This document shows, in pieces, positions 2,795 to 26,348 of a stretch of 26,348 bases of DNA. Origin of the DNA: a virus; IMG/VR virus record IMGVR_UViG_3300042893_001295, positions 1 through 26,348 of that record. One strand, written 5' to 3'. A program made the position numbers and the translations under genes. Numbering within the stretch: position 1 is the first letter of the stretch; the number at the start of each line of letters is the position of its first letter. The notes under the pieces were generated by a model. It had not been told where the DNA came from. It saw only the letters and a list, made by a program, of their open reading frames with translations, and searched no databases.

Positions 2795-5458
2795 ATGAGT
2801 TATGTTGACGCTCTGTTTGACAGAGACAAAGATCGCATTCACGTCGTGGAACGTGTCAAGGGTCAGAGAGTATTTCGAGAGTATCCAGCCAATTACGTCT
2901 TTTATTATGACGATCCACGTGGTAAATTTACCACAATCTACGGCAGTCCTGTCAGCCGCTTTAGTACCAACAACGGAAAAGAATTTCATAAAGAACAGAG
3001 AATTAATTCTGGCAAACGACTGTGGGAGTCAGATTTTAATCCCATCTTTCGTTGTCTGGCAGACAATTATCTGGGCGCAGATAGCCCCAAACTCAATGTA
3101 GCATTTTTCGACATTGAGGTGGACTTTGATCAGAAACGTGGCTACAGTAAGCCCGACGATCCATTCAATCCCATCACTAGTATCTCAGTATACATGGAGT
3201 GGTGTGATAAGATGGTGACCCTGGTGGTCCCACCTAAAACATACAGTTGGGAGACTGCCCAGGAAATCTGCAACAAGTACGAAAATTGTTTCTTATTTGA
3301 GCGCGAAGAAGAAATGCTGAATACGTTCTTGGATATCATTGACGATGCAGACGTATTGTCAGGTTGGAACAGTGAGGGATATGATATTCCCTATACCACC
3401 ATGCGTATTAATAAGATACTCAGCAAAGATGATACACGTAGACTTTGTTTATGGGGACAATTTCCCAAGAAGCGCATGTTTGAACGATATGGTGTAGAAA
3501 GTCTGACGTTTGATCTTGTGGGCCGTATCCATATGGACTATATGCAATTGTATCGCAAGTACACATACGAAGAGCGACACAGCTATAGCCTGGATGCCAT
3601 TGGTGAATACGAGGAATGTGGCAGTAAAGTTGCATACGAAGGCACTTTGGATCAACTTTACAATAAAGAATTTGAAAAGTTTATTGACTATAACAGACAG
3701 GACGTTATGTTGTTGGCCAAACTGGATAAGAAGCTACGCTTCCTGGATCTGGCCAATGAACTGGCACACGACAATACTGTATTGCTACAGACCACTATGG
3801 GTGCTGTGGCAGTTACTGAGCAGGCTATTATTAATGAAGCACATCAACGTGGTTTAATTGTACCCAACAGGAAAAAATCAGATGACGGTGAAAATACCCA
3901 AGCAGCAGGTGCCTATGTTGCTCATCCCAAAAAAGGGGTCCACGAATGGATTGGCGCGATCGACATCAACAGTCTCTACCCGTCAGCAATCCGTGCTCTT
4001 AACATGGGACCGGAAACAATCGTTGGTCAACTCCGACCAGTCATGACTGAGAAATACATCAGCGATAAAATGGCCGCAGGGTCAAGTTTTGCCGATGCCT
4101 GGGAAGATATGTTTGGTAGTTTGGAGTATCAGTCGGTTATGAACTCAGAGCCCGGAACAGAGATTACTATTGACTGGGAAGATGGCAATGTTTCAGTACA
4201 CAGTGCCGCTGAAGTCTGGCGGATTATATTTGACAGTCGACAGCCCTGGATTCTCAGCGCCAATGGTACAATATTTAAGCACGACATGAAAGGAGTTATT
4301 CCCGGACTTCTGGAGAGATGGTATGCAGAAAGAAAAGAACTTCAAGCTAAAAAGAACACCGCAGAAACTCCTGAGGATAAAGCCTTCTGGGACAAACGAC
4401 AACTTGTTAAAAAGATCAACCTCAACAGCCTCTATGGCGCGATCCTTAATGCGGGATGTCGCTTTTTTGACAAAAGAATTGGTCAGAGTACGACGCTTAC
4501 TGGGCGGTGCATCGCGAAACACATGGACGCCTTCGTCAATGAAGCGATTACGGGCTCGTATGATCATATTGGAGATGCAATTATCTATGGCGATACGGAC
4601 TCTGTCTATTTCTCGGCGTGGCCGGCATTCAAAGCGGAAGTGGAAGCAGGACGTATGACCTGGGATCACGACACCTGTGTGGAAATTTATGACACCATTG
4701 GTGAAGCCGTAAACGAAAGTTTTCCGGGATTTATGGAACGAGCTTTCCATTGTCCCAGAGACATGGGCGACATTATCAAAGGTGGACGTGAGCTGATCGC
4801 CAGTAAAGGTTTATTTATCAAGAAGAAGCGTTATGCTGTTCTGATTTTTGATCTGGAGGGAAACCGTCTTGATGTAAATGGTAAGCCCGGTAAAGTTAAA
4901 GCTATGGGCCTGGATCTTAAAAGATCCGATACACCCAAGCTGGTGCAGGACTTTTTAAGTGAAATCCTACTGGATGTTTTGACTGGTAGCAGTCGTGAAG
5001 CCACTGTGGATAAAGTGCGAAACTTTAAACTCAAGTTTGCAGATTTGCCAGCCTGGCAGAAAGGTACACCCAAACGTGTAAACAATTTGACCAAGTATAC
5101 AGCAGAAGAACAACGACTGGGCAAAGCCAATATGCCGGGCCATGTTCGTGCAGCCATGAACTGGAACAATCTCAAGAATATGATGAGCGACAACTACAGT
5201 ATGAGTATTGTGGACGGTATGAAGACCATTGTATGTAAACTCAAAGATAATCCCATTGGATTTACCTCAGTGGGCTATCCCATTGATGAAAGTCGTATCC
5301 CACAATGGTTCAAAGATCTACCGTTTGACGACGATCTGATGGAAACCACAATTGTGGATCAGAAGGTGGAAAACCTTTTAGGTGTTCTAGGGTGGCGTAT
5401 CGCTGAAAGCACTGACATTAAGTCTACATTCGATAGTTTGTTTAGCTGGGGTGAATAA
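2795..5458 (+). CDS. 43: family B DNA polymerase, gp43
   Basis: The 887-residue replicative polymerase with proofreading exonuclease. Exonuclease motifs: Exo I with D106 and E108, Exo II around D197, Exo III with D303. Polymerase motifs: motif A DINSLYPS with D390, motif B KKINLNSLYG ending near residue 547, motif C YGDTDS with D600 and D602. T4 gp43 is 898 residues, so this is full length, with no intein or intron. A strong AGGAGAAGG ribosome site precedes the ATG; it lies within a 15-codon frame (2751-2798) that ends in ATGA with this start. It works with the sliding clamp at 6453. Bases about 3945-4640, covering motifs A to C, use NCG and CTC codons far more than the rest of the gene (see findings). 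Confidence 0.97.
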   Translation: MSYVDALFDRDKDRIHVVERVKGQRVFREYPANYVFYYDDPRGKFTTIYGSPVSRFSTNNGKEFHKEQRINSGKRLWESDFNPIFRCLADNYLGADSPKLNVAFFDIEVDFDQKRGYSKPDDPFNPITSISVYMEWCDKMVTLVVPPKTYSWETAQEICNKYENCFLFEREEEMLNTFLDIIDDADVLSGWNSEGYDIPYTTMRINKILSKDDTRRLCLWGQFPKKRMFERYGVESLTFDLVGRIHMDYMQLYRKYTYEERHSYSLDAIGEYEECGSKVAYEGTLDQLYNKEFEKFIDYNRQDVMLLAKLDKKLRFLDLANELAHDNTVLLQTTMGAVAVTEQAIINEAHQRGLIVPNRKKSDDGENTQAAGAYVAHPKKGVHEWIGAIDINSLYPSAIRALNMGPETIVGQLRPVMTEKYISDKMAAGSSFADAWEDMFGSLEYQSVMNSEPGTEITIDWEDGNVSVHSAAEVWRIIFDSRQPWILSANGTIFKHDMKGVIPGLLERWYAERKELQAKKNTAETPEDKAFWDKRQLVKKINLNSLYGAILNAGCRFFDKRIGQSTTLTGRCIAKHMDAFVNEAITGSYDHIGDAIIYGDTDSVYFSAWPAFKAEVEAGRMTWDHDTCVEIYDTIGEAVNESFPGFMERAFHCPRDMGDIIKGGRELIASKGLFIKKKRYAVLIFDLEGNRLDVNGKPGKVKAMGLDLKRSDTPKLVQDFLSEILLDVLTGSSREATVDKVRNFKLKFADLPAWQKGTPKRVNNLTKYTAEEQRLGKANMPGHVRAAMNWNNLKNMMSDNYSMSIVDGMKTIVCKLKDNPIGFTSVGYPIDESRIPQWFKDLPFDDDLMETTIVDQKVENLLGVLGWRIAESTDIKSTFDSLFSWGE

Positions 5459-21304: not shown

Positions 21305-21312
21305 TATAGCAT
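21295..21312. repeat. inverted repeat spanning the -10 and the RNase H start codon
   Basis: ATGCTA at 21295-21300 and TAGCAT at 21307-21312 are perfect inverse complements with a 6-base loop. The right arm contains the first two bases of the start codon. It may be a DNA operator or a start-occluding RNA hairpin in messages read through from upstream. Confidence 0.45.
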
Positions 21313-22309
21313 GAAATATTTAATCGTAGACACAGCTAATACATTCTTCCGAGCACGTCACAGTGCCCATCGTCAGAGCGACACCTGGGACAAACTGGGC
21401 TTTGCCATTCACGTAACCCTAAGTAGTGTCAATAAAGCGTTCCGAGACCAGAAGGCAGATCATGTGGTCTGGTGCCTGGAGGGACGCAGTTGGCGCAAGG
21501 ATTTTTATGAGCCGTACAAAAAGAACCGAACAGTTGCCCGTGCTGCACTTACTGAAGCTGAGGCTGAAGAAGACCGGCTTTTCTGGGAAACATTTGACGA
21601 ACTACAAACTTTCATCCGTGAGCGCACCAATTGTACTGTTCTCCAGCACCCAAGATTGGAGGCGGATGACCTGGTGGCAGGATGGATTCAAAGTCACCCT
21701 GCAGATCAACACGTAATTGTCAGTAGTGACACTGACTTTTATCAGTTGCTGTCTGAGAATGTCAAACAATATAACGGAGTAGCCGATGAGCTCCACACCA
21801 TCCAAGGTATCTTTGACAAAAAGGGTTCCCCAGTCAAAGATAAGAAAACAAAAGAAGCCAAAAAAATTCCGGATCCCAAGTGGATTCTTTTCGAAAAGTG
21901 CATGCGGGGCGATCCGACCGACAACATTTTTTCGGCTTATCCAGGCGTTAGGACGGTTGGATCAAAAAACAAAGTCGGTCTCACAGAAGCCTTTGAAGAT
22001 AAGACCTCAAAAGGCTTTGCGTGGAACAACCTCATGCTCCAAAGGTGGGCGGACCACAACGGCCAGGAACACCGTGTTCTCGACGACTATGAGCGTAATC
22101 GCATCCTCGTCGACCTCTCGGCGCAACCGGAAGAAATCAAAGCCCTGATTACTGAAACAATATCAGCTGGCAGTCAGCCTAAAAATATATCCCAAGTGGG
22201 TCTGTATTTTATGAAGTTTTGCGGTAAGTATGACCTGGTCAAGATTGGTGATCAGGCACAAGAGTACGCTCAATGGTTAAGCTCACAATATCCAGATAAG
22301 GAATTATAA
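21311..22309 (+). CDS. rnh: T4-type RNase H, 5'-3' exonuclease
   Basis: A 332-residue FEN1/T4 RNase H family nuclease (T4 protein 305) that removes RNA primers and flaps from lagging-strand fragments. Metal ligands appear in order: D7 in the N-terminal VDTAN strand, E117, D119 and D120 in LEADDLV, D140 and D142 in SSDTDF, and D201 and D204 in GDPTDN, followed by a helix-hairpin-helix-like YPGV-R-T-V-G. A Lys-rich loop lies at about residues 172-190. Codons from about 21860 to 22140 differ from the flanks (see findings). The stop shares a base with the next start (TAATG). Confidence 0.92.
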   Translation: MKYLIVDTANTFFRARHSAHRQSDTWDKLGFAIHVTLSSVNKAFRDQKADHVVWCLEGRSWRKDFYEPYKKNRTVARAALTEAEAEEDRLFWETFDELQTFIRERTNCTVLQHPRLEADDLVAGWIQSHPADQHVIVSSDTDFYQLLSENVKQYNGVADELHTIQGIFDKKGSPVKDKKTKEAKKIPDPKWILFEKCMRGDPTDNIFSAYPGVRTVGSKNKVGLTEAFEDKTSKGFAWNNLMLQRWADHNGQEHRVLDDYERNRILVDLSAQPEEIKALITETISAGSQPKNISQVGLYFMKFCGKYDLVKIGDQAQEYAQWLSSQYPDKEL

Positions 22310-23443: not shown

Positions 23444-24255
23444 TGGAAACAACTTTTGAAGTCCCAAAAATTCGCTGCGGTCATCGCATTGGCACTGGCG
23501 CTGACGCTGCATACTGGTTTGAAATGGACCATGCTGGCGAAGGTTCACGCAGTCTGTTGAGTATCTTTGATCTATATCTAAATCAATATGGCTGGGATCG
23601 GTTTATTCAGCCCGGTATGACCTGTATTGACATTGGTGGGCACTCAGGAGATACTGCCATCCCCATGCAGTATCTGGCACGAGCCACTGTACTCAGTGTG
23701 GAGCCCAATCCGCTGATCAAGCAATATCTGGACTTCTGTTGTGATATGAATGCTCATCTGGGCAGATTTGTCACAGCAGGTGAAGCAGTTACTACTGAGA
23801 ACTGTTCAGCAGTAGAGATACTGGATCACAACAATGCCATGTGCAATGGCGGGCGTATTGACCCCAATTGGACTCAGGAATTACAGACACGTATGCGCAA
23901 CATGGCTGGTGATCGAATCACTGTTCCTGGACTAACACTAGAAAATCTCTGTGCTAAATATTTAAGTGAAGCTGAAATTCAAAACACAGGCTTTATCAAG
24001 ACAGACACAGAAGGACATGATTGTTCTATTCTGGAATCAAGTGCCAGTTTCCTGGAACGACTAAAACCCACAATATTTACCGAATGGTTCTTTGCTTATA
24101 CTGATGTAGAAAGTCGTAAATTATTCGATGTCATTAATGATCTCGGATATCGGCCATTCTATCCTGGTACACTAGAGCCAGCCACTGTGGATCGTCGTAG
24201 TGAAGATCTGGTGTTGATTCATCATACCAAAATTCAGGAGTTCTTCAATGAGTGA
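23443..24255 (+). CDS. FkbM family methyltransferase
   Basis: A 270-residue SAM-dependent methyltransferase. Motif I CIDIGGHSGD lies near residues 63-72, the acidic SAM-ribose residue is in LSVEPNP near 87, and FIKTDTEGHD near 184-193 is the FkbM signature, followed by P-T-I-F-T-E-W. FkbM enzymes usually O-methylate sugars or small molecules. Among a glycosyltransferase, a sulfotransferase and an aldolase it may cap a glycan, though no substrate is shown. It overlaps the next gene by 8 bases. Confidence 0.85.
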   Translation: METTFEVPKIRCGHRIGTGADAAYWFEMDHAGEGSRSLLSIFDLYLNQYGWDRFIQPGMTCIDIGGHSGDTAIPMQYLARATVLSVEPNPLIKQYLDFCCDMNAHLGRFVTAGEAVTTENCSAVEILDHNNAMCNGGRIDPNWTQELQTRMRNMAGDRITVPGLTLENLCAKYLSEAEIQNTGFIKTDTEGHDCSILESSASFLERLKPTIFTEWFFAYTDVESRKLFDVINDLGYRPFYPGTLEPATVDRRSEDLVLIHHTKIQEFFNE

Positions 24256-24706
24256 GATTATCGCAAAACCAGTAGTCAAGAATAAATTTTGGATAGTAGA
24301 AGAAGATGGTGCGAAGATTGCCACCATCCAGGCTGTGGAAGAAGGTGGGTTTGCCTATGTGCGTGACACCAACAGGGAAGTATTCCCCACCATCAAGTTA
24401 TTGAGTGAGCGATATAATATACACATCGCCAAGACCACCACTGCGGCCAAAACAGTCAAAGGTGACTGGGAAGTATATGGATTTCCGGTAACCGGCCGCC
24501 CACACAATATATTATACAATGTGCCGCGTAAACTTCCAGTATATACCAAAACAGTTAAAAGTCGTAGCTATTATTGTGCTGGTCATTATCTGATCAAACT
24601 AAAGGACACTTGGGAAAGTCATTTTTGTCCCAAACTGATCACAGTTAACCGTTATCCCACACAGGGCCCATTCCATATTGCCATGACAGGACTAAACGAT
24701 GAGTGA
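24248..24706 (+). CDS. conserved phage protein, unknown
   Basis: A 152-residue protein with a probable beta-rich N terminus (residues 10-45). The more typical region (about 70-145) contains V-Y-G-F-P-V, a basic R-K-L-P-V-Y-T-K stretch, Y-Y-C-A-G-H-Y-L-I and S-H-F-C-P-K-L-I-T. I associate this second part with a hypothetical protein found across marine T4-like phages. No catalytic motif is evident, although the Cys/His pairs could bind metal. Confidence 0.65.
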   Translation: MSEIIAKPVVKNKFWIVEEDGAKIATIQAVEEGGFAYVRDTNREVFPTIKLLSERYNIHIAKTTTAAKTVKGDWEVYGFPVTGRPHNILYNVPRKLPVYTKTVKSRSYYCAGHYLIKLKDTWESHFCPKLITVNRYPTQGPFHIAMTGLNDE

Positions 24707-24914
24707 ACCCAGCATTCATATTAAAAATTTTAACGATAAAGTTAAATTAATGAATCAGACTCAGCGTAAAGAGATAGTACTAAGTGCGGCAGATGCACGT
24801 AGTTTACACGCTGAAATATACGGTTTATTGGCACAAATCGCCGATTTAGCCAGAGTTTCAGAGTCGCCTGAGCCAGTAATACAAGTGGGCATGGATGGCG
24901 GTGGATTTAAGTAA
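24699..24914 (+). CDS. small helical phage protein, unknown
   Basis: A 71-residue protein overlapping the previous gene by 8 bases. Residues 20-52 form a likely long helix or coiled coil (T-Q-R-K-E-I-V-L, then L-H-A-E-I-Y-G-L-L). The end is Gly-rich. Short proteins of this shape are common in T4-like phages; the function is unknown. Confidence 0.6.
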   Translation: MSEPSIHIKNFNDKVKLMNQTQRKEIVLSAADARSLHAEIYGLLAQIADLARVSESPEPVIQVGMDGGGFK

Positions 24915-24920
24915 TATACG

Positions 24921-24958
24921 CTGTTTTCCAGCATAAATAAAAGTATCGAGGAAAACAG
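24921..24958 (+). promoter_or_regulatory. hairpin covering the ribosome binding site, with a late promoter in the loop
   Basis: CTGTTTTCC at 24921-24929 pairs perfectly with GGAAAACAG at 24950-24958. The right arm covers part of the GAGGAAA ribosome site of the gene at 24962. The 20-base loop holds CATAAATA. Messages read from upstream would carry the whole hairpin and be poorly translated, whereas late messages starting near 24946 would lack the left arm. T4 genes e and soc are controlled this way. Confidence 0.7.
24932..24939 (+). promoter_or_regulatory. T4-type late promoter (CATAAATA)
   Basis: CATAAATA differs from the T4 late consensus TATAAATA at the first base only. It shares ATAAATAAnAGTATC with the site upstream of queD. 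Confidence 0.65.
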
Positions 24959-24961
24959 AGA

Positions 24962-25249
24962 ATGAGCCGACCTAAACCCACTGTGTTGTTGGAGCACGTC
25001 AATAAATCTAACTACAAGAGCGAGCAAATTCTTGCCAGTGATGGAATCTGGGCAGTATATTATGATGCTCAACCTATCAATCTAAAAACACAAAATATGT
25101 TGGTCAGTTACCCCGGACCCAAATACAAAAAGGTGTCCTTCAGTAACAGTGGCCACGCTATCAACTTGGCAAAAAAATTGAATGTATTGTTCAAGACTGA
25201 TAAATTTTCAGTCGTTCTGTTGCGCCAGGGTGAGCAAATATATCCTTAA
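24962..25249 (+). CDS. conserved phage protein under late control, unknown
   Basis: A 95-residue basic protein. A central segment (about 25-65) reads as beta strands around Y-P-G-P-K-Y-K-K, and a helix follows (68-78: H-A-I-N-L-A-K-K-L-N). I recognise no family. The leader hairpin and the late promoter indicate that translation is held back until late in infection, so a virion, assembly or lysis-timing role is more likely than replication. Confidence 0.65.
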   Translation: MSRPKPTVLLEHVNKSNYKSEQILASDGIWAVYYDAQPINLKTQNMLVSYPGPKYKKVSFSNSGHAINLAKKLNVLFKTDKFSVVLLRQGEQIYP

Positions 25250-25601
25250 TCAGTCGGAATACCAACAGCGTATTCTGACCAGTCTTGAATTAGACCCCAA
25301 TATCTTAAATGGTGCCCAGTACACCTGGTGGTATAATCCCACCAACCCCTCTAGTCTAAGACTGACCAAGTTGGGCCATAAATGGTTCAGTGGTGTGGCA
25401 AAAATCGCCACTTACCATGTGGGGCTGGGAGACCAGATGATCTATCCAAAACAGCTATTGCAGTTGGAACGATTGTTCACAGCACCCTATTATATACAGA
25501 CACTGAAGAAGCTCTGGGTATATAGTGAAACTGATTACATCATGCTACAGTTACACGGCAGTGATCTAAAGACCTATTTAAACAACCTGGAAAATCAATA
25601 A
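25230..25601 (+). CDS. conserved phage protein, unknown
   Basis: The start is uncertain. The frame is open from an ATG at 25182, but that overlaps the previous gene by 68 bases and gives an unlikely Cys-rich start. A GTG at 25230 gives a 20-base overlap and a 123-residue product, which I prefer. The body contains Y-T-W-W-Y-N-P, S-L-R-L-T-K-L-G, P-K-Q-L-L-Q-L-E-R-L-F and Y-I-M-L-Q-L-H-G-S-D-L. This looks like a compact, well-conserved domain that I associate with marine phages, without a known role. Confidence 0.6.
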   Translation: MSKYILNQSEYQQRILTSLELDPNILNGAQYTWWYNPTNPSSLRLTKLGHKWFSGVAKIATYHVGLGDQMIYPKQLLQLERLFTAPYYIQTLKKLWVYSETDYIMLQLHGSDLKTYLNNLENQ

Positions 25602-25622
25602 GTTGTAAAAATACAACGCTGG

Positions 25623-25651
25623 TTGACCACAAAACCCCTTAATAGTAAACT
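25623..25651 (+). promoter_or_regulatory. weak sigma70-type promoter candidate before the cell-wall hydrolase
   Basis: TTGACC at 25623-25628 and TAAACT at 25646-25651 are 17 bases apart; the -10 matches only 4 of 6. A small hairpin (GTTGTA 25602-25607, TACAAC 25612-25617) precedes it without a T run. Confidence 0.35.
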
Positions 25652-25653
25652 GA

Positions 25654-25676
25654 CTATCTTAATAACTCTAAGATAG
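25654..25676 (+). promoter_or_regulatory. hairpin next to the cell-wall hydrolase ribosome site
   Basis: CTATCTTA at 25654-25661 pairs perfectly with TAAGATAG at 25669-25676 around a 7-base loop. The AGGTG ribosome site (25675-25679) begins in the right arm, so folding would limit translation of the hydrolase at 25685. T4 lysozyme is also held back by a leader hairpin, but no ATAAATA is visible here. Confidence 0.5.
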
Positions 25677-25684
25677 GTGCTGCC

Positions 25685-26293
25685 ATGCGGCGAATTATTG
25701 TGGAATTAAGTTTTGTCAGTGGTATTTTATTTTCAGCCTACACCATTATCAGTATACCTGATATGGTGCGTCAGCTGATTAATCCAGTGGGAATTTTTCC
25801 TATACCGGATCCTATACCAGAACCCTCAGTGCAGGTGTCATCTAAAGAAATCAAGAATTTTTCAGTCAATCCAGTTCTGTTGTATCGAGTATCGTACCAA
25901 CTAAAGTTTACTGCTAAAGAAATGGATTGTTTGGCTAAAAACATTTTCTTTGAATCAGCCACGGAAGACCATGCTGGTAAACTAGCAGTGGCACAGGTCA
26001 CATATAACCGTTTGAAAAACGGCCGTTGGGGTGATGACATCTGTAAAGTGGTATATGCCCGAGCACAGTTCAGCTGGACTCTGGATCAGAGAAAGATGCG
26101 CACACAACCGTATGGGGTCAATTGGGAGAACAGTCAGCAGGCAGCTAGAGATTTTGAGTCAGGTAAACGAGTAGATCGATTACGTGACAGTCTGCATTAT
26201 CATGCTGATTGGATTCGTGCGCCAAAATGGGCCAAATCTGACAATCAGGTGCACAAGATTGGACAACACGTTTTTTATGCGTCAATAAAATGA
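25685..26293 (+). CDS. SleB-type cell-wall hydrolase with N-terminal membrane anchor
   Basis: A 202-residue protein. Residues 1-33 form a basic then hydrophobic segment, a signal anchor or SAR-like export signal. A Pro-rich linker follows (about 36-55). Residues 75-202 are a Hydrolase_2/SleB domain: C78-L-A-K-N-I-F-F-E90-S-A with the catalytic Glu E90, A-V-A-Q-V-T-Y-N-R, A-Q-F-S-W and H-Y-H-A-D-W. It would cleave peptidoglycan, either as endolysin or as a virion-associated enzyme. The anchor makes it likely to act at the inner-membrane outer face or periplasm. The stop overlaps the next start (ATGA). Confidence 0.85.
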   Translation: MRRIIVELSFVSGILFSAYTIISIPDMVRQLINPVGIFPIPDPIPEPSVQVSSKEIKNFSVNPVLLYRVSYQLKFTAKEMDCLAKNIFFESATEDHAGKLAVAQVTYNRLKNGRWGDDICKVVYARAQFSWTLDQRKMRTQPYGVNWENSQQAARDFESGKRVDRLRDSLHYHADWIRAPKWAKSDNQVHKIGQHVFYASIK

Positions 26294-26348
26294 AGAACCA
26301 TTTTGGTCGTTGTGTAGCTAGTATTATGCCACCAGAATCTATCGGCAC
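26290..26348 (+). CDS. start of a further gene, cut by the window end
   Basis: An ATG at 26290 overlaps the hydrolase stop by 4 bases and the frame stays open to the last base (19 complete codons). Too little is present to name it. The ATGA junction supports a real, coupled gene. Confidence 0.55.
   Translation, partial: MKNHFGRCVASIMPPESIG

Follow-up and report, generated by a model that had tools for sequence, protein, structure and literature searches.

A late promoter within an inverted repeat before a conserved gene of large T4-like phages: a candidate switch for late translation and its predicted leaderless alternatives

What might be the significance of a T4-type late promoter lying between the arms of an inverted repeat, one arm of which covers part of a ribosome site, when the gene that follows belongs to no known family? 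The question is raised by a 26,348-base virus record from a large uncultivated T4-like phage (the whole of this stretch is referred to here as the window), in which the site fills the 47-nt gap between a 71-aa gene and a 95-aa gene with its ATG at 24962. All the assigned genes of the window are on the + strand, and the closest relatives of its DNA polymerase are those of two jumbo phages, Sinorhizobium phage Phosso and Agrobacterium phage Atu_ph07. A blastn search of positions 24000-26348 against phages gave no match. The genes relevant to the argument are as follows.

2795-5458, + strand: T4-like DNA polymerase (phrog_262)
in the window, + strand: QueD-, QueE- and GTP-cyclohydrolase-like genes
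21311-22309, + strand: exonuclease
24699-24914, + strand: co-directional 71-aa gene (ending ...MDGGGFK), which read-through RNA would cross
24962-25249, + strand: 95-aa gene (MSRPKPTV...), product without assigned function
25230-25601, + strand: next gene, with a GTG start and a 20-nt overlap with the 95-aa gene; no family match

The original prediction spoke of an unknown gene, and the 95-aa product indeed found nothing convincing in Pfam, PHROGs or NCBIfam and no match among PDB sequences; its AlphaFold2 model is poor (mean pLDDT 64.5). The protein is highly conserved (36 of 95 columns are invariant among 38 sequences), and relatives are encoded in at least 599 IMG/VR stretches, in 15 of 50,697 phage records (all 15 from phages of at least 284 kb) and in six contigs from bacterial assemblies, five of them metagenome-assembled. 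When 109 loci were surveyed by tblastn, the neighbours corresponding to the genes at 24248, 25230 and 24699 were found in 95, 81 and 77, respectively, counts that are low, as the 95-aa gene itself was recovered in only 96 of these 109 loci, all of which hold one. The gene at 25230 probably shares the late RNA of the gene at 24962. Downstream of these two genes is a putative cell-wall hydrolase gene (25685-26293; Pfam Hydrolase_2, PHROG endolysin, hydrophobic N-terminus), just 5' of which a perfect 8-bp inverted repeat (CTATCTTA/TAAGATAG, 25654-25676) without ATAAATA was seen by eye. Such a hydrolase was the downstream neighbour in only two of the 109 loci (by the same low-counting tblastn), so a role of the switch in the timing of lysis is not general.

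The elements of the intergenic site are:

24917-24926, + strand: box TACGCTGTTT, of the family form T[AG]CGYANNTT, overlapping the left arm
24921-24929, + strand: left arm CTGTTTTCC, 5' of the predicted late start and so present in read-through RNA only
24930-24949, + strand: 20-nt loop, holding CATAAATA
24932-24939, + strand: late promoter core CATAAATA, recognised by family conservation (-13 to -6 in T4 numbering)
24945, + strand: predicted late transcription start, 6 nt after the last A of the core
24948-24953, + strand: Shine-Dalgarno site GAGGAA
24950-24958, + strand: right arm GGAAAACAG, covering GGA of the Shine-Dalgarno site

The core motif by itself proves nothing, since YATAAATA occurs twice in the window, below the chance expectation of 4.1; it is conservation among relatives that is informative. 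NNTAAATA was present within 80 nt of the start in all 106 upstream regions of the family (the window and L007-L111), and took the form ATAAATA in 97 of them, compared with 83 of 5300 random 80-mers; as the loci had been picked by protein similarity, this is not an effect of selection. The 106 cores comprise 52 GATAAATA, 42 CATAAATA, two TATAAATA, one AATAAATA and nine with C or G at the second place, so that the family has a TATAAATA-like 8-mer with variable first bases just 5' of the gene, as expected of a T4-type promoter (GC/AC variants at -13/-12 are reported for late promoters of Aeh1 in an extract of PMC2988020). In a further 80 loci, at least ten of them on contigs already in the set, the core was always within 40 nt, and the three of 105 loci with a more distant core were left out of the later family analyses (pair tests, 139 unique sequences and tree). 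A gp55-type late sigma factor (phrog_234) was found in T4 and in six of the nine relatives searched (the window itself being a 26-kb fragment); these six are the largest, and phrog_234 was not found in the three shorter contigs. The gp45 family (phrog_223) was found in T4 and in none of the nine, whose versions may be too diverged. ATAAATA shows a strong coding-strand bias in G001 (48/10), G002 (15/44), G004 (13/37) and G005 (5/24), a weak one in PA5oct (78/67) and SCTP-2 (198/163), none in G006 (5/5) and little or none in two small contigs; a pattern control was useless here because ATAAATA reads the same backwards. Many of the other ATAAATA sites, when the stretches were read, were followed after about 18-26 nt by a start codon that has a Shine-Dalgarno site. 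The gp45 result and the weak or absent strand bias in PA5oct, SCTP-2 and G006 count against it, but taken together the sequence evidence makes it well supported that CATAAATA at 24932 would act as a late promoter, as had been proposed, and as one of the gp55 type. The T4 8-mer is numbered -13 to -6 (in an extract of PMC2988020), which places the predicted start at 24945 and would leave late RNA without the left arm.

The repeat, too, is as originally described: two perfectly complementary 9-nt arms around a 20-nt loop with CATAAATA inside it, the right arm lying over part of the ribosome site of gene 24962. The window thus has the layout of T4 gene e, with the late start between the arms and the ribosome site hidden, although of GAGGA the stem takes in only GGA. 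A stem of this kind is in itself not unusual, since the window contains five perfect 9-bp repeats with loops of 3-30 nt (two being registers of one repeat), and it is its position that counts. RNA from 24915 to 24965 folds to -10.8 kcal/mol with the 9-bp stem, a value that none of 200 dinucleotide shuffles reached, and a longer RNA (24905-24975) to -11.5 (7 of 200 as low). The two flanks of the promoter core (the left one, and the right one ending at the start codon) were also paired as a duplex. For the window this gave -13.5 kcal/mol (P about 0.01 when the right flank was shuffled 300 times), and the T4 sites before MNIFEMLRIDERLRL, which we take to be gene e and which were scored in this way as a positive control, gave -10.3 and -9.1. 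The predicted pairing of the Shine-Dalgarno core is 0.51 in the long RNA and falls only to 0.41 in the late RNA, because the first two bases of the core are outside the stem; so small a drop speaks against a translational switch.

The reading that we think fairly probable is that gene 24962, and probably 25230 with it, is translated mainly from late RNA by means of a promoter-in-hairpin switch, as T4 gene e is. Read-through RNA from the upstream co-directional genes would carry both arms and form the 9-bp stem, in which half of the Shine-Dalgarno core is computed to be hidden; RNA started at about 24945 would have no left arm, and its ribosome site would be freer. In the window the stem is stable and has the geometry of T4 gene e, and the hairpin is plausible on these grounds alone, its conservation in its own lineage not being demonstrable.

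It is this last point that gives some substance to a different explanation, which we consider rather doubtful: that the promoter is real but the hairpin of the window is a chance by-product, the left arm being kept for the sake of the T[AG]CGYANNTT box while the right arm drifts. The distance from this box to the ATAAATA core is nearly constant at 16-17 nt. The looser T[AG]C[ACG] takes its place in 41 of the 45 sequences belonging to the window's class (those without a GGAG leader), compared with 2 of 23 other late promoters; the box is possibly an operator or an extra promoter element. In the sister contig L004, whose gene is 81% identical to that of the window, the left arm and promoter are the same and the right arm is mostly lost (GGAATAGAC instead of GGAAAACAG; duplex -6.1). 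The window's leader is also present in four contigs (L002, L003, L005 and L006), which were found by searching for that leader itself and look like near copies, and a scan with a degenerate arm pattern gave 17 stretches, namely five known relatives and 12 others that do not precede the 95-aa gene. Nor does the class as a whole covary, as described below. Against a by-product are the low probability of so strong a stem (P about 0.01, and none of 200 shuffles as low), its exact overlap with the Shine-Dalgarno site, the strong covariation of the sister class with GGAG leaders, and a compensated change (TTATCC/GGATAA) in the more distant relative L089, where the duplex (-7.3, P 0.27) is not significant alone.

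Covariation was assessed without fixing the register of the stem; a column-wise analysis on one alignment was dropped because the stem slides by at least one position relative to the Shine-Dalgarno site between relatives. When right flanks were swapped among 84 non-redundant sequences, own flanks paired better (mean -6.65, swapped -5.11, z -7.2). Lineages can mislead such an all-swap test, and we therefore also compared nearest relatives (by coding sequence, with both arms different and without reuse): own arms won over swapped ones in 39 of the 52 pairs (sign test, P 4e-4). The two classes behave very differently. With the GGAG leader, own arms were better in 27 of 30 pairs (P 8e-6), both arms changing while complementarity stays (for example CCTACATTT/AAATGTAGG in L108, CGTAGTTTA/TAAACTACG in L075, CTCCTAGTTTA/TAAACTAGGAG in L203 and CCAGTTTA/TAAACTGG in L093), and in this branch the stem clearly appears, to judge from the pattern of substitutions, to have been kept by evolution. 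In the class without GGAG, which includes the window, the 22 pairs divided evenly, 11 favouring own arms and 11 swapped ones, and gave no signal; the window's duplex is among the strongest of this class, in which stems are scattered, so that here the stem may be a recent or optional addition. A partner for the left arm was sought further downstream: the window's class gave no clear signal, its best z (-2.1) being that of the leader itself, and in the GGAG class the leader came out best. Individually, among 139 unique sequences, 19 duplexes had P<0.01, 38 P<0.05 and 57 P<0.1 against shuffled right flanks, where about 1, 7 and 14 would be expected by chance. The cultured relative PA5oct has a 7-bp CCAGTAA/TTACTGG around the promoter (P 0.12, not significant alone). 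In the leaders of L007, L013, L023 and L026 the Shine-Dalgarno site appears, by eye, to lie within, or next to, the loop of a small hairpin formed by the late RNA itself (for example TATATGT..ACATATA), and the same is seen at L172, before another gene in G005.

The proposal that the hairpin silences read-through RNA has therefore fared unevenly: the geometry and stability of the window's stem and the covariation of the GGAG class speak for it, and L004 and the 11:11 outcome in the window's own class against it. The uncompensated variation of arms that had been named as a sign against the switch is thus seen in part and close to the window, in L004, and the window's class as a whole gives no signal, whereas compensated changes are found in the GGAG class and in L089.

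An inverted repeat around a promoter could instead be a DNA operator, bound by a repressor dimer or serving autorepression, rather than an RNA hairpin. The autorepression of I-TevI at its own late promoter (an extract of PMC2988022) provides a precedent, and the box has some weak dyad symmetry (2.2-3.3 of 6, compared with 1.7-2.7 for swapped halves), but an operator would be expected to keep its sequence, whereas among relatives the letters of the arms vary widely with complementarity retained, the spacing of the arms varies and G-U pairs are present; we regard an operator as improbable. Still less credible is a transcription terminator of the upstream unit: T-run hairpins were seen by eye just before late promoters elsewhere in G001 and G005, but the stem here is AT-rich with a 20-nt loop and, again by eye, has no T-run after either arm on either strand.

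Returning to the promoter-in-hairpin switch, we note that hairpins around late promoters are also found before other genes. In a set of 22 further late promoters, each from a different protein cluster, own flanks again paired better than swapped ones (z -2.9, P 0.004). The family mean of -6.65 is no stronger than that of 35 other late promoters of G001 and G005 (-6.70), which counts against the switch, although these 35 themselves include strong cases. Very strong hairpins occur at late promoters of other genes at L159 (-22.6) and L170 (-17.6), in G001 and G005, and at Phosso 265114 (-26.6); L144 and L170 precede related genes (MARIHEE.../MAKIHEE...). Over all sites the swap test was significant in Phosso (z -2.9, P 0.004) and not in T4 (P 0.06), Atu_ph07 (P 0.18) or PA5oct (P 0.15). 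Terminator-like hairpins with T-runs were noticed by eye directly before the late promoters L130, L132, L134, L160 and L182 of G001 and G005.

Some members of the family appear to have dispensed with the leader. The distance from core to ATG in the 139 unique sequences is 5 nt in 12, 7 nt in five, 8 nt in three, 10 nt in one, 11-14 nt in none and at least 15 nt in 118; thus in 20 of them the ATG follows the motif by only 5-8 nt, and their late RNAs are predicted to be leaderless or nearly so. A 5-nt spacer would put the A of the ATG at +1, given a late start 6 nt after the core.

Exactly 5 nt from ATAAATA/CTAAATA core to ATG: L111, L197-L201, L217-L220, L228, L232, L237, L245, L250, L033, L056, L072

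Only 1 of 21 short-leader sequences shows significant pairing, so most do not rely on a hairpin. Mapped on a tree built quickly from 151 coding sequences, the leaderless state (24 rows with 8 nt or less) requires ten changes at the fewest, at least three of them forced by well-supported branches, and L062 has a Shine-Dalgarno site and stem while its close relatives L197-L201 (95-96% identical protein) are leaderless. Predicted leaderless gp55-type sites also precede other genes in the clade: in G001, G004 and G005 an open-frame ATG lies 4-7 nt after the core at 16 of 105 sites and 8-10 nt after it at none, counts that have no control motif because only stretches around ATAAATA were taken. An ATG 4-6 nt after the core was found at none of the sites with an ATG within 44 nt in T4 (0/30), Phosso (0/39) or Atu_ph07 (0/24), and in PA5oct at 2 of 40, like control motifs. 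With the ATG at the late start, or 2-3 nt after it, read-through RNA would be without any ribosome site, so that the hairpin and leaderless layouts would both keep such RNA untranslated. We tentatively suggest, as a possibility that falls somewhat short of being likely, that the clade has interchangeable ways of tying translation of this gene to the late start, the covarying hairpin and the loss of the leader, with repeated switching between them.

If the switch is real, a textbook form of T4 control, described for a few lysis, capsid and endonuclease genes, would reach a conserved gene in a clade of large phages that is very widespread. Its natural variants are numerous enough for tests of covariation, the leaderless ones allow us to ask whether what selection maintains is the link between translation and the late start and not the hairpin as such, and a cultured relative with a similar layout (PA5oct) makes the switch testable.

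How does this compare with known systems? The T4 precedent invoked by the original prediction is sound: in an extract of PMC3014915, inhibitory structures are described at e, soc, 49 and I-TevI, whose late transcripts are without the 5' strand, and synthesis of lysozyme is given as 100-fold lower when the transcripts are long. The layout described there is that of the window (promoter between the arms, right arm over the ribosome site, late RNA without the 5' arm), and the late-gene hairpins of I-TevII, I-TevIII, segB and Aeh1 mobE (an extract of PMC2988022) likewise combine promoter and hairpin within longer transcription units. In contrast to T4 gene e, the window's gene is not a lysozyme, an endonuclease or a member of any known family, and its stem scores as the stronger (-13.5 compared with -10.3 and -9.1). 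Unlike homing endonuclease genes, it is conserved and mostly syntenic in a clade of large phages and has no endonuclease family match. At T4 gene 25 a stem in the initiation region is kept across many T4 relatives with its sequence conserved (an extract of PMC3014915), whereas in the GGAG class it is complementarity that is kept as the letters change. In the open-licence literature on late promoters of jumbo phages and on leaderless late genes of T4-like phages, including extracts of PMC5312081 and PMC11845039, we found no report of the hairpin described here or of leaderless gp55-type late genes. Since the inhibitory leaders of T4 are already described, the mechanism is not new; what look new are the gene concerned, the branch in which the arms covary and the leaderless layout.
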